The notes under the pieces are model-generated. The model did no database searches and was not told where the DNA came from. It was given only the letters and a program-made list of their open reading frames with translations. A DNA stretch of 64,000 bases from Xenophilus azovorans DSM 13620 (GTDB lineage: Bacteria; Pseudomonadota; Gammaproteobacteria; Burkholderiales; Burkholderiaceae_C): contig NZ_JQKD01000016.1 in NCBI RefSeq assembly GCF_000745855.1, positions 62,001 through 126,000 of the forward strand. The letters run 5' to 3'. Shown here one piece after another: positions 41,321 to 50,623 of this stretch (positions are counted from its first letter, which is position 1; each line of letters starts with the position of its first letter). The position numbers were made by a program, and so were the translations under genes.

Positions 41321-42415
41321 TCAGAACAGGCTGCCCTGCCCGTCCTCCCGCGGCGGGCGGAAGGCCGAGAGGTCCATCACGATGCGCTCGCGGTTGAAGC
41401 CGATGCGCCGCGTGGCCTTGGCGAAGCGCTGCCCGATCAGCTCGGCCCAGGTGCCGGTGCCTTTCATGCGGGTGCCCCAGTCGGCGTCGTAGTCCTTGCC
41501 GCCGCGCATCTCGCGGATGCGCGCCATGATGCGCGCCGCGCGCTGCGGGTGGTGCACGTCGAGCCACTCGCGGAACAGCGGCGCCACCTCCCACGGCAGG
41601 CGGATCACCGTGTAGAAGGCGCTGCGCGCGCCGGCGTCCCAGGCGGCCTCGAGCACCTGTTCCATGTCCTCCGTGACGAAGGGAATCTGCGGCGCCACGC
41701 TCACGCCCACCGGCACGCCTGCCTCGGCCAGCGTGCGGATGGTGCGCAGCCGACGGTGCGGCGCGGCGGCGCGCGGCTCCAGCGCGCGTGCGACTTCGCC
41801 GTCGAGCGTGGTCACGGTCACGTAGACGGCCGCCAGGTGCTGCGCGGCCATGGGTGCGATCAGGTCGAGGTCGCGCTCCACGGCGCTGGACTTGGTGACC
41901 AGCGCGAAGGGGTGCCGCGCCTGCTGCAGCACCTCGATCACCGAGCGCGTGAGGCGCAGTTCGCGCTCGATGGGCTGGTAGCAGTCGGTGGCGGTGCCGA
42001 TGGCGATCTCGGCCGGTTGGTAGCGCGGGCGTGCCAGTTCCTGGCGCAGCACCTGGGCGATGTTGCGCTTGGCGATCAGCTTGGTCTCGAAATCGAGGCC
42101 CGGCGAGAGGTTGAGGTAGCTGTGCGTAGGCCGGGCGAAGCAGTAGATGCAGCCGTGCTCGCAGCCGCGGTACGGGTTGAGCGAGCGCTCGAAGGGGATG
42201 TCGGGCGAGTCGTTGCCGCCGAGCACGGACTTCGCGTCCTCGAAGCGCACCTCGGTGGCCACGGCGTCCGGGGCGGCGGTGACGAAGTCCTCTTCCTCGA
42301 GCGTGCCCCAGCCGTCGTCGAAGCTGCCCCGCGCCTCCTTCTCGAAGCGGTGCGCCAGCCGCGAGGCCGCGCCGCGGCCCTTGATGGCATGCAGGGGGAT
42401 GTGGGTGTCGGCCAT
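41321..42415 (-). CDS. PA0069-type radical SAM protein (SplB-like)
   Basis: Starting at ATG 42415, the 364-residue protein has the radical SAM cluster motif CEHGCIYC inside NPYRGCEHGCIYCFAR near residue 90. It is related to the DNA photoproduct lyase SplB and to Rv2578c/PA0069-type proteins, whose reaction is unknown. The start is close to a strong LexA box at 42420-42439, so the gene should be SOS-controlled, which fits a DNA-repair role. ATG 42415 is chosen because longer frames run through the LexA box. It is divergent from a GbsR-like regulator. Confidence 0.88.
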   Translation of the reverse strand: MADTHIPLHAIKGRGAASRLAHRFEKEARGSFDDGWGTLEEEDFVTAAPDAVATEVRFEDAKSVLGGNDSPDIPFERSLNPYRGCEHGCIYCFARPTHSYLNLSPGLDFETKLIAKRNIAQVLRQELARPRYQPAEIAIGTATDCYQPIERELRLTRSVIEVLQQARHPFALVTKSSAVERDLDLIAPMAAQHLAAVYVTVTTLDGEVARALEPRAAAPHRRLRTIRTLAEAGVPVGVSVAPQIPFVTEDMEQVLEAAWDAGARSAFYTVIRLPWEVAPLFREWLDVHHPQRAARIMARIREMRGGKDYDADWGTRMKGTGTWAELIGQRFAKATRRIGFNRERIVMDLSAFRPPREDGQGSLF

Positions 42416-42419
42416 GGAA

Positions 42420-42439
42420 TACTGTACATAAATACAGTT
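42420..42439. promoter_or_regulatory. LexA (SOS) box before radical SAM gene
   Basis: TACTGTACATAAATACAGTT contains CTGT-N8-ACAG and matches the E. coli consensus TACTGTATATATATACAGTA at 17 of 20 positions. It ends five bases from the ATG of the radical SAM gene at 42415. Confidence 0.85.
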
Positions 42440-42483: not shown

Positions 42484-42503
42484 ATTTCTTTGTTGACAGA
42501 AAT
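42484..42503. promoter_or_regulatory. Candidate GbsR operator, copy 1 (regulator promoter)
   Basis: ATTTCT-TTGTTGAC-AGAAAT has perfect 6-bp arms and covers the -35 element TTGACA of the regulator's promoter. A near copy lies at 43163 before the downstream operon; the shared core is ATTTCT-N-T-N-TTGAC-N-GAAAT-N-TCG-N-AA. Confidence 0.65.
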
Positions 42504-42520
42504 TTCGGAAACCATACACT
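42493..42520 (+). promoter_or_regulatory. Sigma-70 promoter of GbsR-like gene
   Basis: TTGACA (42493-42498), 16 bp, TACACT (42515-42520). The ATG at 42528 is only eight bases beyond, so the mRNA would be leaderless or nearly so. Confidence 0.65.
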
Positions 42521-42527
42521 GAGCGCC

Positions 42528-43130
42528 ATGGAACTGACCGAACTGCAACGCAAGTTCGTCCTGCACTGGGGCGAGATGGGCTCGATGTGGGGCGTCAACC
42601 GCACCGTCTCGCAGATCCACGCCCTGCTCTTCGTGCACGGCAAGCCCATGCATGCCGAGGCGCTGTCGGAGACGCTGAACGTCGCCCGCTCCAACGTGAG
42701 CAACAGCCTCAAGGAGCTGCAGGCCTGGAACCTGGTGCGCGTGACGCACGTGCTGGGCGACCGGCGCGACTACTTCGAGACCAGCGTCGACGTGTGGGAG
42801 CTGTTCCGCACCGTGGTGCGCGAGCGAAAGGAGCGCGAGTTCGACCCCACCACCCGCCTGCTGCGCGAGATCGTCGCCAGCCCCGACTTCGCCCGCGAGC
42901 CGGCCGACGCGCAGGACCGCATCCGCGCGACGATGGAACTGATGGACAAGCTCGGCGCCTGGGCCGACGAGATGCTGCGCCTGTCGCCCGGCACGCTGGA
43001 CAAGGTGCTCAGCCTGGGCGCCAGCGTGCAGCGCTTCGTGCGCGGCGACGCGGCGGCCAGGGCGCCCCGGCCCGGCGGCCCGGACGGCGACGACGAGGCC
43101 GACCGCCATGCCAGCCTGCCCATGCTCTGA
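42528..43130 (+). CDS. GbsR/MarR-family regulator
   Basis: A 200-residue GbsR-type protein: RKFVLHWGEMGSMWGVNRTVSQIHALLFVHGKPM, of which the core GSMWGVNRTVSQIH is the family signature, then LNVARSNVSNSLKELQ as recognition helix. The C-terminal region (about residues 85-170) is helical and ends in a disordered Asp/Gly-rich tail. GbsR of Bacillus senses choline, but most homologues have unknown ligands. It is followed by its own terminator and by an operon whose upstream region repeats the regulator's operator-like sequence. Confidence 0.88.
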   Translation: MELTELQRKFVLHWGEMGSMWGVNRTVSQIHALLFVHGKPMHAEALSETLNVARSNVSNSLKELQAWNLVRVTHVLGDRRDYFETSVDVWELFRTVVRERKEREFDPTTRLLREIVASPDFAREPADAQDRIRATMELMDKLGAWADEMLRLSPGTLDKVLSLGASVQRFVRGDAAARAPRPGGPDGDDEADRHASLPML

Positions 43131-43154
43131 GATCGCTTTCCGGTCTCTTTTTTT
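43129..43154 (+). terminator. Intrinsic terminator after GbsR-like gene
   Basis: Stem GAGATCG / CGGTCTC (one G-U pair), loop CTTTC, then seven T residues. It separates the regulator from the following operon. Confidence 0.7.
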
Positions 43155-43162
43155 GCACCTTT

Positions 43163-43182
43163 ATTTCTGTTTTGACTGAAAT
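43163..43182. promoter_or_regulatory. Candidate GbsR operator, copy 2 (operon promoter)
   Basis: ATTTCT-GTTTTGAC-TGAAAT, with ATATCGAAAG following, repeats the site before the regulator at 42484. It lies 17 bases before the first gene of the operon. A -10 element at standard spacing from TTGACT would fall on the start codon, so the true promoter position is unclear. Confidence 0.6.
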
Positions 43183-43198
43183 ATCGAAAGTGACGATC

Positions 43199-43660
43199 AT
43201 GAAGGCCAGCCCCGCCTATCCGCTCACCCTCTACTACGACGGCAGCTGCCGCCTGTGCAGCGGCGAGATCCGCCACCTCCAGGCGCGCGACCGCGCCGGC
43301 CGGCTCGCCTTCGTGGACTGCTCGCCGGCGGACTTCACCGGCGGCCCCGCCCCGCGCGCCGCGCTGATGGAGGCCATCCACGCGGTGGACGCGGCGGGCC
43401 GCGTCTACGTCGGCATCGACACCTTCCGCGCCGCCTACGCCGCCGCCGGCCTGCCGCTGGTGAGCGGCCTGCTCGGCCTGCCGCTCGTCTCGCAGGCCGC
43501 GCGGCGCGCCTACCCGGTGCTGGTGCGCCACCGGTACCGCCTGCCGGGCTGGCTGATCGGCCCGCTGTTCGAGCGTGCGGCGCGCCGTGCCGCACGCCGC
43601 AGCGCAGGCTGCCGGGAGGGCGCCTGCACCGTCCCCGGCGGCGCACAGGGAGGCCGCTGA
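43199..43660 (+). CDS. DCC family thiol-disulfide protein (DUF393)
   Basis: The 153-residue protein has the DCC-family start LTLYYDGSCRLCSGEI with a CxxC thiol pair, the LAFVDCSPADF segment and a C-terminal RHRYRLPGWLIG typical of the family. The fold is thioredoxin-like; a redox role is inferred. It is the first gene of the GbsR-linked operon, and its stop overlaps the next start by one base. The C-terminal end is Arg/Ala-rich. Confidence 0.85.
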   Translation: MKASPAYPLTLYYDGSCRLCSGEIRHLQARDRAGRLAFVDCSPADFTGGPAPRAALMEAIHAVDAAGRVYVGIDTFRAAYAAAGLPLVSGLLGLPLVSQAARRAYPVLVRHRYRLPGWLIGPLFERAARRAARRSAGCREGACTVPGGAQGGR

Positions 43661-44547
43661 TGCGCGTCCTGCTCGCCGGCGCCAGCGGCTTCGTCGGCCG
43701 CGCCGTGGCGCACGCACTCACCGGCGCGGGGCACACGGTCATTGCCCGCAGCCGCCGCAGCGCGCCCGCGCTGGACTTCACCCACGCCACGCGGCCGCAG
43801 GACTGGCGGCCCCACCTCGCCGGCATCGACGCCGTGGTCAACGCGGTCGGCGTGCTGCGCGATTCGCCGCGCGCGCCGATGGCGGCCGTCCATGCCGCCG
43901 CCCCGCAGGCGCTGTTCGAGGCCTGCGCGCAGGCCGGCGTGCGGCGCGTCGTGCACATCTCCGCGCTGGGCATCGAGCGCAATCCGACCCGCTACGCGCA
44001 GACCAAGCGCGCGGCCGACGCGGCGCTGCTGCGGCTGACGCAGGCCGGCGCGCTCGACGGCCTGGTGCTGCGGCCGAGCCTGGTCTTCGGCAGCGGCGGC
44101 GCGAGCAGCCGGCTGTTCGTCGCGCTGTCGCACCTGCCGCTGCTGACGCTGCCGCGCCCCGTGCTGCACGCCCGCGTGCAGCCGCTGGCGGTGGACGAAC
44201 TGGCCGAGGCCGTCGCCGCGCTGCTCCCGACGTGCGGGCAGGGCGGGCTGATGGAACTCGGTGGACCCGAGGCGCTGACGCTGGCCGGCTTCATCGCCAG
44301 CCTGCGCGCGCAGCGCGGCGCCACCCCGGCCCGTGTGCTGCCCCTGCCCGGCTGGGCCACCCGCGCCAGCGCCTGGCTGGGCGACCAGGTGCCCGTCTCG
44401 CCCTGGTGCAGCGAGACGCTGGCGCTGCTGGCCACCGACAACATCGCCGCACCGGGCCGGCTCGCGCATCTGCTCGGCCGGCCGGCCACGCCGCCTTCCG
44501 CCCTGCTCGCCACGCTGGCCGGGCCGCCGGCTGCCCACGCCGCATGA
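43660..44547 (+). CDS. SDR-type NAD(P)-binding protein
   Basis: The 295-residue protein has the Rossmann motif VLLAGASGFVGRAV, VVNAVGVLRDS and the YAQTKRAADAAL Tyr-Lys pair. Related proteins of the complex-I NDUFA9-like/YesF type are often fused to or next to a DoxX-like membrane protein, as here. The start overlaps the DCC stop; the stop overlaps the DoxX remnant start (ATGA). The substrate is unknown; quinone- or lipid-linked chemistry is a guess from neighbours. Confidence 0.82.
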   Translation: MRVLLAGASGFVGRAVAHALTGAGHTVIARSRRSAPALDFTHATRPQDWRPHLAGIDAVVNAVGVLRDSPRAPMAAVHAAAPQALFEACAQAGVRRVVHISALGIERNPTRYAQTKRAADAALLRLTQAGALDGLVLRPSLVFGSGGASSRLFVALSHLPLLTLPRPVLHARVQPLAVDELAEAVAALLPTCGQGGLMELGGPEALTLAGFIASLRAQRGATPARVLPLPGWATRASAWLGDQVPVSPWCSETLALLATDNIAAPGRLAHLLGRPATPPSALLATLAGPPAAHAA

Positions 44548-44802
44548 ACCCCATTCGCGCCCTGCACCTGAGCCTGGTCGCCGTCTGGCTGGGCACGGCG
44601 CTGGCGAGCGCCCTCGAAGCGCACGGCCAGAGCGCGCAACTGCTGCACGACGCGGGCATCGCCGACCCACGCTGGCAGGCCGCGCTGATCTGGGCCGGCG
44701 TTGTGGCTGCATCCGCTCGGCCCGCTGCTCAAGAACCTGCCCATCGCCGCCGCCCTGTGGCTGCTGATGAACGCCCACGACCACGGAGGAAGCACCGCGT
44801 GA
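44544..44802 (+). pseudogene. DoxX-like membrane gene with internal deletion and frameshift
   Basis: Codons 1-52 from ATG 44544 encode the usual start of a DoxX-like protein (LHLSLVAVWLGTAL, GQSAQLLHDAGI). From 44701, in the +1 frame, the usual C-terminal end follows: LWLHPLGPLLKNLPIAAALW to a stop at 44802. The middle, about 45 residues with two transmembrane helices in relatives, is missing, and the join shifts the frame. In the original frame translation runs on without a stop through the next gene to 45269. Either a true deletion or an assembly error explains this; ancestry as DoxX is from recalled family features. Confidence 0.7.
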
Positions 44803-45269
44803 ACACCTACCTGCTCCTGAAGACCGCCCACATCGTCTCCAGCGTGGTGCTGGTGGGCACGGGCTTCGGCTCGGCCTTCTACCTCTTCTTCGCCAACCGC
44901 AGCGGCGACGTGCGGGCGCAGGCCGTCGTCGCGCGGCTGGTGGTGCGGGCCGACCTGTGGTTCACCACGCCGGCCGTGGTCGCCCAGCCCGCCACCGGCA
45001 TCGCGCTGGCCCACATGGCGGGCTGGCCGCTGGCGACGCCGTGGCTGGCCTGGTCGATCGCGCTGTACCTGCTGGCCGGGGCCTGCTGGCTGCCGGTGCT
45101 GTGGCTGCAGCTGCGCATGGCCCGCATGGCGCAGCAGGCGGCCGTACAGGACGCGGCACTGCCCGCCGGCTACCTGCGCCTGGCGCGCTGGTGGGAAGGG
45201 CTGGGCTACCCCGCCTTCGCCGCCATGCTGGCCGTGTACTGGCTGATGGTGAACAAGCCGGCCTTGTAA
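44799..45269 (+). CDS. DUF2269-family integral membrane protein
   Basis: A 156-residue membrane protein starting at GTG 44799, behind the strong ribosome site GGAGGA. It has four hydrophobic helices with LLKTAHIVSSVVLVGTGFGSAFY and a C-terminal GLGYPAFAAMLAVYWLMV. This matches the DUF2269 (YozB-like) group, of unknown function; the conserved His of KTAHIV is kept. It overlaps the stop of the DoxX remnant by four bases (GTGA), so the original operon was translationally coupled. Confidence 0.82.
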   Translation: MNTYLLLKTAHIVSSVVLVGTGFGSAFYLFFANRSGDVRAQAVVARLVVRADLWFTTPAVVAQPATGIALAHMAGWPLATPWLAWSIALYLLAGACWLPVLWLQLRMARMAQQAAVQDAALPAGYLRLARWWEGLGYPAFAAMLAVYWLMVNKPAL

Positions 45270-45293
45270 ACGCCCCGAAAGAGAGGACTGCCG

Positions 45294-46217
45294 ATGACAC
45301 ACGCTCCCACCTGCACGACCTCCGGCGCACCCGCGGCGGCGCACCGCGCCCCGACATCGCAGGACACGCAGGCCTACTTCACCGAGACGGCGCACGACTA
45401 CCGCGCCTGGAGCCCGGGCTACAACATGCACTTCGGCTTCTGGCGCGCGGGGCTGAATCCGCTGCGGCGCGAGCCCATGCTGGAGGCGATGAACCATGCG
45501 GTGGGCGAGGCCCTGGCCCTGCCCGCCGGCACGCCCGCCTGCGTGGTGGACCTGGGCTGCGGCGCCGGTGCGGCGGCGCGCACGCTGCTGCGCCGCTGGC
45601 CGCTGCTGCATGCGGTGACGGTGACCAACGTGCCGGTGCAGAACGACATCGCCCGCGCGCTCGATGCGCCGGCCGGCGTGGCCGGCCGGGCGGTGCACCT
45701 GGCCGCCGACTTCACCCGCACCGGCCTGCCCGCCGCCCAGGCCAACGGCGCCTGGGCGCTGGAAAGCGCCTGCTACGCGCCCGGCGACGACAAGCGCGCC
45801 TTCTGCCGCGAGGCGGCGCGGCTGCTCAAGCCCGGCGCGCGGCTGGTGGTGGTCGACGGCTTCCTGCTGCGCGGGCGGCCCGGGCGCATCGCCGGCCGGC
45901 TGCACCGCCTCTGGGCCGACAGCTGGGCGGTGCCCACCCTGGCGCGCCGGGACGACTTCCTCGCCGCGCTGCGCGCCGAGGGCTTCGAGCAGGTGCGCTT
46001 CCGTTCGCTGCGCTGGCGCATCGCGCCGAGCGCGCTGCACGTGCCCTGGCTCGCCACGCGCTTCGCCATCGCCGCGCTGTGGAAGGCGCGCGGTCGCCTC
46101 ACGCCCTGGCGCCGCCGGCACATCGTCGCCAGCTACTGCGCGCTGGCGCTGGGCCTGTTCTGGCGCGATTTCGACTATGGCATGGTCACGGCCGTGCGAG
46201 CACACGACAAGACATGA
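45294..46217 (+). CDS. SAM-dependent methyltransferase
   Basis: A 307-residue class I methyltransferase with motif I VVDLGCGAGAAARTL near residue 82 and the later GARLVVVDGFLL. The region YNMHFGFW before motif I resembles sterol, tocopherol and cyclopropane-type small-lipid methyltransferases, suggesting a hydrophobic acceptor. It starts 24 bp after the DUF2269 gene and overlaps the membrane-SRPBCC gene (ATGA). Acceptor substrate unknown. Confidence 0.8.
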   Translation: MTHAPTCTTSGAPAAAHRAPTSQDTQAYFTETAHDYRAWSPGYNMHFGFWRAGLNPLRREPMLEAMNHAVGEALALPAGTPACVVDLGCGAGAAARTLLRRWPLLHAVTVTNVPVQNDIARALDAPAGVAGRAVHLAADFTRTGLPAAQANGAWALESACYAPGDDKRAFCREAARLLKPGARLVVVDGFLLRGRPGRIAGRLHRLWADSWAVPTLARRDDFLAALRAEGFEQVRFRSLRWRIAPSALHVPWLATRFAIAALWKARGRLTPWRRRHIVASYCALALGLFWRDFDYGMVTAVRAHDKT

Positions 46218-47242
46218 ACGACACGACCGACCTGCCGCAGCCTGCGCAGTCCCGCACCCTGGCCTTCTCCGGCTGGTACCCGTACCTGATGGGCGCCGTC
46301 GTCGGGCTGGGCCTGCGGCTGGTGTTCAGCGGCAGCCCCGGCGGCCGCTACTCGGCCATGCTGGCAGCCTTCATCTACCTGGCGCCGGCGCTGTGCGGCG
46401 CGGTGACGGTGTACGTGGCCGAGCGCCGCGCACGCCGCGGCTGGCGCTACTACCTGTTCGCGCCCTGGCTTTCCACGGCGCTGATGGTGGCCGGCGCGCT
46501 GACGATCCTGGTCGAGGGCTGGATCTGCGCCATCGTCATCTTTCCGCTGTTCATGCTGCTGGGCAGCGTGGGCGGCCTGCTGATGGGGCTGCTGTGCCGG
46601 CTCACCCGCTGGCCGCGCCACGCGCTCCACGGCTTCGCGGTGCTGCCCCTGGCGCTGGGCATGGTGGAGCCGGACCTGCCCAACCCCGTGGCGCGCTCGC
46701 AGGCCAGCCACGCCACCTTCATCGCCGCGCCGCCCGACAGCGTGTGGGCGGCGCTCAACGACGTGCGCGGCATCCGCGAGGAGGAGCTGGCCGGCGTGTG
46801 GGCCTACCGCATCGGCGTGCCGCGCCCGCTGGAGAGCATCACCGAGACCGTTGCCGTCGGCCCCGACACGCCCGTGGGCCGCATCCGCCGCATGCAGTGG
46901 GACCGCGGCGTGCGCTTCGACGGCCTCGTCACGACGTGGCAACCGGGGCGCGAGCTGGCCTGGCGCTACCGCTTCGGGCCCGGCTCGGTGCCGCCCGGCG
47001 CGCTGGACGACCACGTGCAGGTCGGCGGCCACTACTTCGACCTGAACGAGACCCGCTTCACGCTGACGCCCAGGGACGGCGGCACCGAACTGCGCATCGA
47101 CGTGCACTGGCGCACCAGCACGCACTTCAACTGGTACGCGAACGCCGCCGCGCGCCTGCTGATCGGCAACTTCACGGAGGGGATCCTGGACTTCTACAAG
47201 GCCCGCGCGGAGCAACTGGCGCTGGAGGGCGGACAGCGATGA
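46214..47242 (+). CDS. Membrane protein with C-terminal SRPBCC-like domain
   Basis: The 342-residue protein has about four transmembrane helices in its first 150 residues. The remainder, beginning near HATFIAAPPDSVWAALNDV, is a START/SRPBCC-like lipid-binding fold, typical of polyketide cyclase/dehydrase relatives. A membrane anchor fused to a hydrophobic-ligand-binding pocket suits a lipid- or quinone-handling role. It is coupled by overlapping starts and stops to both neighbours. Function unknown. Confidence 0.75.
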   Translation: MNDTTDLPQPAQSRTLAFSGWYPYLMGAVVGLGLRLVFSGSPGGRYSAMLAAFIYLAPALCGAVTVYVAERRARRGWRYYLFAPWLSTALMVAGALTILVEGWICAIVIFPLFMLLGSVGGLLMGLLCRLTRWPRHALHGFAVLPLALGMVEPDLPNPVARSQASHATFIAAPPDSVWAALNDVRGIREEELAGVWAYRIGVPRPLESITETVAVGPDTPVGRIRRMQWDRGVRFDGLVTTWQPGRELAWRYRFGPGSVPPGALDDHVQVGGHYFDLNETRFTLTPRDGGTELRIDVHWRTSTHFNWYANAAARLLIGNFTEGILDFYKARAEQLALEGGQR

Positions 47243-47856
47243 CGCAGGCCCCCGTCTTCCGCAGCGTGCTGGGCGAGGCCGCCTGGCAGCGCCTGGGCGA
47301 AGTGGTGCGCCGCCACTACAGCCTGCGCCCCTTCTCCGGCGACAGCGTGACGGTGCGGGGCCGCATGGACGAGGTCTGGCGCGGCCGCTGGGCCTGGCTG
47401 CTGCTGCCCGCGGGCCGCCTGTTCGGCGCGCTGGTGCCCTATCAGGGCCGCGACGTGCCGATCGAGGTGCACTACCGCTGCCACCCCGACAGCGCGCGGC
47501 TGTCCTGGGACCGCCGCTTCCGCTTCGCGGGCCGGCCGGTCTTTCATTTCCGCTCCTTCATGGAGGCCGCGCCGCACGCGCGCCACGAGGTCGTCGAGTA
47601 CGTGCGCTTCGGCCTGGGCCTGCGGCTGCGCGTGAGCGCGGAGGATGGCGCGCTGGTGTTCCGCGACGCTGGCTACGTGTGGCGGCTCGGCCGCGGTCCG
47701 CGTGTGCCGCTGCCGCTGCACCTGCTGCTCGGCCGCGCCTACGTGGAGGAGCGCCCCGTGCCGGGCGACGACGGCGCCTTCACCATGCAGATGCGCATCC
47801 GCCACCCGTGGTGGGGCGACGTCTTCCGCTACAGCGGGCGCTTCCGGCTGGACTGA
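47239..47856 (+). CDS. DUF4166-domain protein
   Basis: The 205-residue protein begins RSVLGEAAWQRL and RRHYSLRPFSGDSVTVRGRMDEV, typical of DUF4166, a domain often found next to or fused with SDR proteins of the type at 43660. It has no signal peptide or membrane segment. It ends the GbsR-linked operon, 20 bp before the convergent trmJ. Function unknown. Confidence 0.82.
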   Translation: MTQAPVFRSVLGEAAWQRLGEVVRRHYSLRPFSGDSVTVRGRMDEVWRGRWAWLLLPAGRLFGALVPYQGRDVPIEVHYRCHPDSARLSWDRRFRFAGRPVFHFRSFMEAAPHARHEVVEYVRFGLGLRLRVSAEDGALVFRDAGYVWRLGRGPRVPLPLHLLLGRAYVEERPVPGDDGAFTMQMRIRHPWWGDVFRYSGRFRLD

Positions 47857-48665: not shown

Positions 48666-48947
48666 TCAGCGCGCCTTGCGGCGCTCCCAGGCGACCAGCG
48701 CGAGGATGACCACCCCGGCGCTCAGGCTGATGTGGCCGCACCAGGCCACCAGGCCCAGCGACCAGCCCTGCGCATCGACGGCGATGGCCAGCGAGGCCAG
48801 CAGTGCCGCCCAGCCGCCGATGCGCAACGCGCGCGAGCGGCAGGGTTCGAGTTCGCGGCCGAACAGGTCCTGCTGGTGGCGGTCCATCGCCAGCGCCAGC
48901 AGGGCGAAGGCCAGCAGCGAGACGACGGAGACGGCGGCGTGGCTCAT
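48666..48947 (-). CDS. DUF3325 small membrane protein
   Basis: A 93-residue protein with three hydrophobic helices and a central LAMDRHQQDLFGR, typical of DUF3325. Such genes accompany PepSY-type iron reductases in siderophore operons (the pseudomonad FpvG-FpvK group is the best-known example). It is the last gene of the iron operon, and its ATG overlaps the PepSY stop by four bases. Probably an accessory of the reductase; inference from context. Confidence 0.8.
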   Translation of the reverse strand: MSHAAVSVVSLLAFALLALAMDRHQQDLFGRELEPCRSRALRIGGWAALLASLAIAVDAQGWSLGLVAWCGHISLSAGVVILALVAWERRKAR

Positions 48948-50623
48948 CGGGCAGCCTCCTGCAGCGCCGGCTCGCCCACCGGTTCGTCCGGCGGCGGCGC
49001 GGCCGGGCGGCGCGCGGCCGCGGCCTGGCGCTGCGGGCGCAGCTTGGGCTTGTGGCGCGCCGTGCGGATCGCCAACGCCACGTGCAGCGCGGCCAGCGCC
49101 AGCAGCGTGAGTTCCAGCCCGGCGAAGATCCAGTCGCCGGCGCGCAGGCTGGCGAGCAGGCCCCGGTCGGTGGTCAGGGCATTGAGCACCGGCAGCAGCG
49201 CCAGCGCCGCAGCGCCCGTCCACAGCAATTCGATCCAGGCCCGCCGGGCCGGCCGCAGCAGCGCCCAGGCCAGCGTCGCGCCCCACACGATGAAGAAGGC
49301 GTGCACCTCCCATTCGGCACGCTGCGCCAGCCCCAGCGGCAGCAGCCGGTTGGCCCACAGCATGCCGGCCATGGCGATCGACAGGCCGGCGATGGCGGCG
49401 ATGTTCAGCCGCTCCACCAGCCGGAAGCCGAAGTACGGCCGCTCGGGGTCGGGCAGCTTGGCGCGGCGCTTGACGGTCCACAGCACCAGCCCCGTACCCA
49501 CCATCGCCGTGCCGGCCAGGCTGACGAGGAAGTACAGCCAGCGCGTCACCGTGTCGCCGAAGCGGCCCAGGTGCAGCGCGTACATCACGCCACGCGTCTC
49601 GGCGGCAGGGCCGACGCTGTCCTTGGCCTGCAGCAGCCGCCCGGTGGGGCCCTCGAAGAGCAGGAACTGCGGGCTGACCGAGGCGCGGCCCTCGTCGCCG
49701 CGGGTGATGCTCACGCGTGCGCTCGCGTCGCCGGGGTGGGTGATGGTCACGCGGTTGATGTTGTCGCGGCCCCAGCGCGCCTGGGCCTGACGCACCATGT
49801 CCTCGATCGGCGCCAGCGTCGCGGCCTGCCCGCTGGGCTTGCCGGGCTGGACGAAGGCGCTCGTCTCGGCGCGCAGCTGCTGGCGCTCGGCCGGCGTCTT
49901 GAAGGCCGCCTGCTCGCCCCACGGCATGTACAGCGACATCAGCGTCACCAGCCCGGTGTAGGTGATCATGGCGTGGAAGGGCAGCCCGAAGACCGACAGC
50001 GCGTTGTGCGCGTCCAGCCAGCTTCGCTGCCCCTTGCCCCAGCGGAAGGTGAAGAAGTCGATGAAGATCTTCTTGTGCGTGATCACCCCGCTGACGATGG
50101 CCACCAGCATGAACATCGCGCAGAAGCCCGCCAGCCAGCGCGCCCACAGCACCGGCATGTAGTGGAACTGGAAGTGGAAGCGGTAGAAGAACTCGCCGCC
50201 GCCGGTGTCACGCGCCGCCACCTTGTGGCCGGTGGCGGGGTCGAAGGTGGCGCTCTGGAAGGCGCGCCGCCCTTCCACGCCGGGCGTGCGCCAGAAGGCG
50301 CCGGCGGTGTTGTTGCGCGCGTCGGGCAGGCCGATGCTCCACTGCGGGCTGCCCGCGGCCACCGTCTGCAGTTCGCCGGCGATGCGCGCTGCCACCAGCG
50401 CCGGGTCGGGCACCTCGGCCTGGTGCGCCAGCTCGGGCCGCATCCACTGGGAGATCTCGTCCTTGAAGTAGCTCACCGTGCCGGTGAGGAACATGGCGTA
50501 GAGGAGCCATCCCACCAGCAGCCCGGCCCAGATGTGCAGGTCGGACATGGTCTGGCGGATGCCGCGCGGCTGCGGCGCAGCCTTGGCCTTGGCCGGCGTC
50601 GTGTCGTTGCTGCGGCGGCTCAC
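48944..50623 (-). CDS. PepSY-domain inner-membrane protein, probable siderophore-iron reductase
   Basis: A 559-residue PepSY_TM protein. An N-terminal helix (HIWAGLLVGWLLYAMFLTGT), a PepSY region, further helices (VSGVITHKKIF, FHAMITYTG with His residues that may ligate heme) and a C-terminal cluster of four helices are visible. Relatives such as FpvG reduce ferric siderophores in the periplasm. It is cotranscribed with DUF3649 and DUF3325 partners and a TonB receptor. A Pro/Ala-rich C-terminal tail of about 40 residues is unusual but simple. Confidence 0.87.
   Translation of the reverse strand: MSRRSNDTTPAKAKAAPQPRGIRQTMSDLHIWAGLLVGWLLYAMFLTGTVSYFKDEISQWMRPELAHQAEVPDPALVAARIAGELQTVAAGSPQWSIGLPDARNNTAGAFWRTPGVEGRRAFQSATFDPATGHKVAARDTGGGEFFYRFHFQFHYMPVLWARWLAGFCAMFMLVAIVSGVITHKKIFIDFFTFRWGKGQRSWLDAHNALSVFGLPFHAMITYTGLVTLMSLYMPWGEQAAFKTPAERQQLRAETSAFVQPGKPSGQAATLAPIEDMVRQAQARWGRDNINRVTITHPGDASARVSITRGDEGRASVSPQFLLFEGPTGRLLQAKDSVGPAAETRGVMYALHLGRFGDTVTRWLYFLVSLAGTAMVGTGLVLWTVKRRAKLPDPERPYFGFRLVERLNIAAIAGLSIAMAGMLWANRLLPLGLAQRAEWEVHAFFIVWGATLAWALLRPARRAWIELLWTGAAALALLPVLNALTTDRGLLASLRAGDWIFAGLELTLLALAALHVALAIRTARHKPKLRPQRQAAAARRPAAPPPDEPVGEPALQEAAR

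Follow-up and report, generated by a model that had tools for sequence, protein, structure and literature searches.

Organization of the locus

The locus analyzed here lies in a 64-kb stretch of DNA from Xenophilus azovorans DSM 13620 (the window, from whose first base positions are counted) and comprises eight co-directional genes spanning 42528-47856, headed by the gene of a GbsR-type transcriptional regulator (gbsR) and accompanied by two 20-bp palindromes of one architecture, 679 bp apart. A preliminary description of this DNA had placed the same eight genes and both motif copies at these positions, and all of them were located there. The features are listed below, with lengths in base pairs (bp), nucleotides (nt) or amino acids (aa).

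42484..42503, no strand assigned: operator site 1, ATTTCTTTGTTGACAGAAAT, overlapping the -35 element of the gbsR promoter
42493..42520, plus strand: sigma-70-like gbsR promoter, TTGACA-16-TACACT, whose -10 element ends 7 nt before the ATG
42528..43130, plus strand: gbsR, GbsR-type (MarR superfamily) regulator of 200 aa, predicted autorepressor
43129..43157, plus strand: terminator-like hairpin and T-run after gbsR, tentative
43163..43182, no strand assigned: operator site 2, ATTTCTGTTTTGACTGAAAT, ending 16 nt before the dcc start
43199..43660, plus strand: dcc, DCC1-like thiol-disulfide oxidoreductase family protein (PF04134) with a CxxC motif; an alternative in-frame GTG start lies at 43190
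43660..44547, plus strand: SDR, NDUFA9-like and NAD(P)-binding, with Ser-Tyr-Lys kept
44544..44802, plus strand: remnant of a DoxX_3 gene (PF13781), with an internal deletion of ~119 bp and a frameshift relative to intact relatives
44799..45269, plus strand: DUF2269 (PF10027), four-helix integral membrane protein, GTG start
45294..46217, plus strand: class I S-adenosylmethionine (SAM)-dependent methyltransferase
46214..47242, plus strand: membrane-SRPBCC protein, a hydrophobic N-terminal part with a C-terminal SRPBCC-like domain (PF10604, below cut-off)
47239..47856, plus strand: DUF4166 (PF13761), predicted calycin-type beta barrel

Start and stop codons overlap at the dcc/SDR, SDR/DoxX, methyltransferase/SRPBCC and SRPBCC/DUF4166 junctions, and the gap between DUF2269 and the methyltransferase gene is 24 bp. 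These overlaps, together with the linkage of regulator and downstream modules in 80 related loci (see below), support the earlier view of a single transcription unit. Pfam matches above the cut-off were obtained for MarR_2, DCC1-like, Epimerase/NAD_binding_10, DUF2269, Methyltransf_25/11 and DUF4166. The family match of the first product, which carries a MarR-like winged-helix domain (PF12802, 39.2 bits vs a cut-off of 27), agrees with its original annotation as a GbsR-like regulator.

Conservation of the two palindromes

A regulator scan of the genome collection yielded 135 relatives, of which the best 80 were kept as loci for comparison; these loci are not independent (36 belong to Variovorax, and L081 and L082 share identical gbsR DNA). 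In the source genome (an assembly of 6.54 Mb in 132 contigs, 99.6% complete), ATTTCNNTNNTNACNGAAAT occurs only at the two places upstream of gbsR and dcc. The operator-like sequence reported earlier at 42484 and 43163 fits both sites exactly in the form in which it was given; in the relatives its core held up while its trailing TCG did not at site 1 (the C is kept in 81% of 27 rows, the T and the G each in under half), and the fuller operator consensus is approximately ATTTCTGT-N4-ACAGAAAT.

The exact pattern ATTTC-N10-GAAAT was found in 135 copies within the 1,104,321 bases of the 80 loci, 74 of them at site 1, 61 at site 2 and none elsewhere, vs no copies of the reversed control pattern in the same bases. 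When mismatches were scored over 16 fixed positions, site 1 was present with at most two in all 80 relatives, and site 2 with at most two in 74 and with three in the other six. As a control, 400 random windows of 150 bases were drawn from the same loci, and 393 of them had at least four mismatches and seven had 0 or 1 (some of these windows may have fallen on true operator sites). In seven loci where gbsR is followed by a long gap, among them all six with three mismatches, the search for site 2 was extended to 720 bases, to which the control is not matched. The motif is thus present upstream of the orthologous operons, where the preliminary description had expected it, and its conservation relative to the controls rules out a chance motif. 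The wider supposition that these are neighboring genes sharing a motif by accident, with no regulated unit, draws on nothing beyond the view of a single genome; contradicted by both the operator conservation and the regulator-module linkage in relatives, it is barely credible.

The exact site 1 (74 loci) begins 41-55 bp upstream of the gbsR ATG, and in 53 of these loci it begins at -44. Of the 44 non-Variovorax loci, 27 have the exact site at -44, and column statistics of this region were derived from these 27, a selection that builds in the invariance of the outer ATTTC and GAAAT. Among the unselected columns, T(-37) and the TTGACA at -35 to -30 are invariant, positions -39, -38 and -36 are variable, and the DNA at -80 to -46 carries 0.0-0.6 bits. 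The same loci have a conserved -10 element (TAgAcT, -13 to -8) and, because it ends seven bases before the ATG, the gbsR mRNA is probably leaderless. The earlier proposal that gbsR has its own promoter (TTGACA-16-TACACT) is accordingly well supported; its own terminator fared less well, the hairpin and T-run being present in the window (one terminator-like hairpin vs 0.5 expected in shuffles) and the T-run being kept in all five relatives that were folded, in none of which the hairpin was seen.

We also examined 29 further loci from the same family or order, which were hand-picked rather than random and did not include those with cydAB neighbors, the paralogue loci L176/L177/L180 and L181 (a copy of L085). 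In 25 of the 29, the shorter core TTTC-N10-GAAA was found no more than 200 nt upstream of gbsR, a count with no shuffled control.

Relation of the regulator to CydE, CioR and other GbsR-type proteins

The nearest relatives of the window regulator are those of Xenophilus (Comamonadaceae), and among solved structures it is related to MJ223 (1ku9), the template named for GbsR in the survey of this family (PMC6207618). According to the available text of that survey, the GbsR/OpcR/OpuAR regulators, which share with the window protein the family and its MarR-like DNA-binding domain, control betaine synthesis, osmoprotectant uptake, other transporters and cytochrome bd; 106 of 179 proteins are placed in four classes, in none of which the available text mentions an operon of the window type, and the 73 unassigned ones are mainly from Euryarchaeota and Bacteroidetes. 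An osmoprotectant (choline/glycine betaine) regulon, as for the founding Bacillus GbsR, would be suggested by the family name and by the best NCBIfam match, CudC, which scores 42.8 bits, far under its 218-bit cut-off. However, no betaine gene is found among the operon families, and we rejected this very improbable assignment for want of any supporting gene.

A closer parallel is provided by CydE-cydAB of Alishewanella sp. WH16-1 and CioR-cioAB of Chromobacterium violaceum, in each of which a GbsR-type autorepressor likewise heads its own operon (PMC6096048 and PMC11837568). The DNase footprint of CydE covers TATTTCAGAAATTTCTGAAAGTTCA and a second, unlike site (Xia et al. 2018, PMC6096048); the first of these equals the window palindromes in half-sites and spacing. 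Because this footprinted site has the same architecture, it is very probable that the window palindromes serve the GbsR-type repressor as its operator. The arrangement differs in that the window has two alike sites 679 bp apart, unlike the two dissimilar sites of CydE, and the targets differ as well, since CydE and CioR act on cytochrome bd genes, of which the window operon has none.

This parallel raises the possibility of a respiration-linked operon, in which SDR-DoxX-DUF2269 would be an NAD(P)H:quinone-side oxidoreductase or a respiratory-chain helper, induced like cytochrome bd when the terminal oxidase is blocked. In its favor, regulators of a neighboring clade adjoin cydA/cydB in 15 hand-picked loci, mostly with the same kind of site (the TTTC-N10-GAAA core lies within 200 nt upstream in 12 of the 15, e.g. 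TTTCAGTAATTACTGAAA, again with no shuffled control). CydE itself binds such a site, and repression by CydE in Alishewanella was demonstrated and reported to be relieved by sulfate (PMC6096048). CioR directly represses cioRAB and governs the cyanide induction of cytochrome bd, an effect that its authors attribute to metals (PMC11837568). On the other hand, neither the window nor any of the 80 relatives and 29 further loci contained a match to cydA or cydB. In a 68-row tree of the regulators (some rows long-branched, and Bacillus GbsR and Alishewanella CydE not among them) the 15 cyd rows and three paralogues, including that of the source genome, separate from the 50 other rows at 100/99, and the window regulator falls outside this 18-row clade of cydAB-linked regulators.

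The source genome has four further places within one mismatch of TTTCNGTNNNNACNGAAA (control count 1), one of which (C11:51526) fits the cyd paralogue, the other three being without clear link. Its only cydA is on contig C11 and is reached by a run of minus-strand genes that has the cyd-type site C11:51526 upstream; the paralogue is ~11 kb away on the same contig. This paralogue is a second GbsR-type gene, of the cyd clade (region C11:40264-51543), located a few kb from cydA and a cyd-type operator. Two genomes of the same genus have a cyd-like site (ATTTCAGTAATTACCGAAAT or its complement; L175:6884 and L178:7066) in whose vicinity no operon gene was found; an ABC transporter gene begins ~0.4 kb beyond the site in L175.

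Two gene modules exchanged under one regulator

The module survey of the 80 relatives was performed by tblastn with the window proteins and the intact DoxX of L085, a search that weak relatives would escape; gene calls in low-GC loci are unreliable. The full eight-gene order is confined to the window among the 81 loci compared. The order gbsR-dcc-SDR-DoxX-DUF2269 (first module) occurs in 27 of the 80 relatives and gbsR-dcc-methyltransferase-SRPBCC-DUF4166 (second module) in another 27, the remaining 26 having partial forms (some cut by a contig end), four mixtures of SDR and methyltransferase in Variovorax, and a first module with an added methyltransferase in L085. Gene order, which had been expected to be conserved beyond this strain, is therefore conserved by module, the complete order being seen in the window alone.

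Xenophilus itself displays three states, with the first module in L096, the second in L081 and a mixture in L085. Among the other loci, L247 combines both sides (gbsR, methyltransferase, two DCC, SDR, DoxX and DUF2269), L246 and L248 have SDR, DoxX, DUF2269 and a DUF4166 gene beside a GbsR of the same group, and L242 has a DUF4166 gene with DCC and SDR. From the three Xenophilus states and these mixed loci we infer an exchange of modules under a common regulator. In 27 of the 29 further loci without cydAB, one or more operon relatives were recognized, in either orientation and anywhere in the locus.

The SDR-DoxX-DUF2269 module

The DCC protein matches PF04134 with 78.7 bits, and D[GAS]xCxxC is present in 59 of 63 orthologues. 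In the SDR, the glycine motif and the Ser are kept in all 40 aligned rows, the Lys in 39 and the Tyr in 34 (Phe in six). Its profile is closest to the 39-kDa/NDUFA9 subunits of complex I (27 of the best 30 rows bear this name; the top one, 9g83_P, is annotated only as an epimerase), which are the closest solved relatives. Unlike NDUFA9, the window SDR has largely kept Ser-Tyr-Lys and is encoded next to DoxX and DUF2269. The resemblance speaks for the respiration-linked operon introduced above; however, as NDUFA9 is a subunit of complex I, likeness to it does not show electron transfer, and DUF2269 has a single invariant His, too few for a bis-His haem. Taken with the regulator evidence, we regard a respiratory role of this kind as rather unlikely.

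The DoxX-like gene had been noted as broken, which the comparison confirmed and specified: relative to the intact genes of L085, L096, L154 and L131 it is ~119 bp shorter and frameshifted. A deletion of this size, as distinct from a single-base change, rules out a simple sequencing error; mis-assembly may be the source of the gap. The DoxX start is in frame with DUF2269, and this frame is open from 44544 to 45269, up to the DUF2269 stop (241 aa); as it lacks a stop in between, a DoxX-start/DUF2269 fusion protein could also be made.

DUF2269 matches PF10027 with 197 bits over positions 2-150 of 150, and its model has four long helices (predicted local distance difference test score, pLDDT, 95.8). 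A match to this family was found in 47 of 200 phylum genomes, 42 of them above the cut-off. In 19 of 29 phylum-wide loci (the window's own excluded) an SDR protein of 418-446 aa directly adjoins DUF2269, and all five of these long proteins that were scanned (L186, L192, L197, L201 and L206) end in DoxX_3. The SDR-DoxX_3 fusion was also detected in L171 (by a separate search), L188 and L209; L188 is among five of the 29 loci counted as lacking an SDR, yet is fused according to Pfam. Tandem DUF2269 genes with no SDR within the flanks of ~1.5 kb were found in L184, L185 and L189. These fusions of other Pseudomonadota contain, together with the adjacent DUF2269, the same three domains in the same order as the window, where in contrast SDR and DoxX are separate genes. 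In L171, for which longer flanks were available, both the fusion and the regulator are present; the other fusion loci were seen with ~1.5 kb flanks only. It is likely that SDR, DoxX and DUF2269 act as one membrane unit. No functional paper on the SDR-DoxX_3 fusions was found in the open-access literature searched, and for DUF2269 the accessible texts held only a remark on the distant similarity of the PuuD DUF989 and a table row.

The methyltransferase-SRPBCC-DUF4166 module

By profile, the methyltransferase is nearest to those acting on small molecules, among them 5gm1, 6uv6, 3bus and MitM. The SRPBCC-like domain of the next protein matches PF10604 with 23.3 bits vs a cut-off of 27.4, and its relative in L110 also falls below. 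DUF4166 is predicted to be a calycin barrel: its model (pLDDT 93.9) has the calycin-type fold and resembles nitrobindin best (Z 10.6, 144 residues at 3.7 A), with a Foldseek match at E 5.9e-4, the likeness to nitrobindin and other calycins being one of fold at 12% sequence identity. Profile matches of DUF4166 to DNA-binding proteins covered short stretches only (best 1.6e-4) and were judged spurious. The literature search returned no paper on DUF4166. Elsewhere in the family, its gene was observed beside that of an epimerase-DUF1731 protein (L034, L044), and in L047 a saccharopine-dehydrogenase-DUF4166 fusion adjoins a DCC protein.

Another conceivable role of the operon is the detoxification or tailoring of foreign hydrophobic compounds that induce the regulator. 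Regulators of the MarR superfamily often bind small hydrophobic ligands, the methyltransferase is nearest to small-molecule enzymes, and the distribution is patchy (DUF4166 in 26 of 250 family genomes), with modules being exchanged. On the other hand, the window operon has no efflux pump, and the phylum-wide occurrence of DUF2269 better suits a general function. We consider such a role unlikely.

Flanking genes

Divergent from gbsR is a gene of a PA0069-family radical SAM protein (41321-42415, minus strand; 464.5 bits vs a cut-off of 360). Between the two, CTGTACATAAATACAG at 42422-42437 is the sole CTGT-N8-ACAG in the window; it resembles a LexA (SOS) box, which would presumably serve the radical SAM gene. 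The same pattern is found 95-107 bp upstream of gbsR in 36 of the 80 relatives. Near the operon, a PepSY_TM protein (48944-50623, minus strand) belongs to a minus-strand gene run.

Proposed mechanism and its functional implications

Given these genes, operators and module structure, the operon may be an autoregulated one for NAD(P)H-dependent chemistry on a hydrophobic molecule of the membrane phase, a reading to which we give even chances. A dimer of the GbsR-type regulator would bind both 20-bp palindromes, one over its own -35 element and the other just before the second gene, and would thereby shut off gbsR and the downstream genes until some signal releases it; this regulatory part, an autorepressor with two operators, is highly likely on the basis of the conserved sites. 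The NDUFA9-like SDR with its membrane partners DoxX and DUF2269 and the DCC protein would constitute a membrane-associated NAD(P)H-dependent module, and the small-molecule methyltransferase with two putative hydrophobic-ligand proteins (membrane-SRPBCC and the calycin-like DUF4166) a second one. The joint target of the modules might be a hydrophobic molecule located in or at the inner membrane, which they would reduce, methylate and shuttle.

Since no core biosynthetic enzyme is present in the window operon or recurs among the recognized operon genes of the relatives, this molecule would most likely be one universal to cells, the candidates being quinones, isoprenoids and damaged lipids. A native membrane-phase substrate has slightly less than an even chance, and a quinone in particular is doubtful. 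The role first suggested for this operon, in modifying or transporting a membrane lipid or quinone, fits the families (NDUFA9-like SDR, DoxX, DUF2269, calycin-like DUF4166, SRPBCC) and is possible. Hopanoids look excluded for the source genome, as no match to squalene-hopene cyclase was found in its nearly complete assembly.

Several observations weigh against parts of this proposal. Exact site 2 is missing in 19 of the 80 loci and, of 59 loci that could be measured, 46 have at most 21 nt and eight have 27-35 nt between its end and the next start. As this gap is usually too short for a -10 element and a start point (a promoter scan at site 2 returned TTGACT-17-GATCAT, overlapping the start codon), site 2 may act as a roadblock and not as the operator of a promoter. 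Genes of both modules are mixed in only five of the 80 relatives, and because the modules are mostly found apart they need not share a substrate. In L231 and L241 the regulator is present with no recognized operon relative. With its DoxX broken, the first module may be impaired in the window strain. Finally, the DUF2269 model has no Foldseek match at E<=0.001, and the matches listed in a further fold comparison (Z 15.0 to a designed bundle, at most 12.5 to cytochrome b6f) are uninformative for a helical bundle.

A more speculative and rather improbable extension of the autoregulated-operon reading is that SDR (NDUFA9-like)-DoxX_3-DUF2269 forms a membrane complex with NAD(P)H oxidoreductase activity, so far undescribed and widely distributed in Pseudomonadota, that acts on the quinone/isoprenoid pool. 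In Burkholderiales a CydE-like repressor would have brought it into a respiratory-stress program, and in Variovorax and Xenophilus the same regulator would have replaced it by, or joined it to, a module of methyltransferase and lipid carriers serving the same stress.

Nothing recognized as this operon was found in the open-access literature searched. Judged by that literature and the available text of the GbsR survey (PMC6207618), it is a conserved, apparently undescribed class of GbsR operon and not a new kind of system.

The analysis provides a defined and testable operator-regulator pair for DUF2269, DUF4166 and DoxX_3, families of unknown function, and places them in a common regulon. Other genomes could be searched with the operator, which is sufficiently specific, and a derepressed gbsR mutant, which would turn on the products jointly, would be the simplest route to the substrate. 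For the GbsR family as a whole, the target classes are extended beyond osmoprotection, transport and cytochrome bd.

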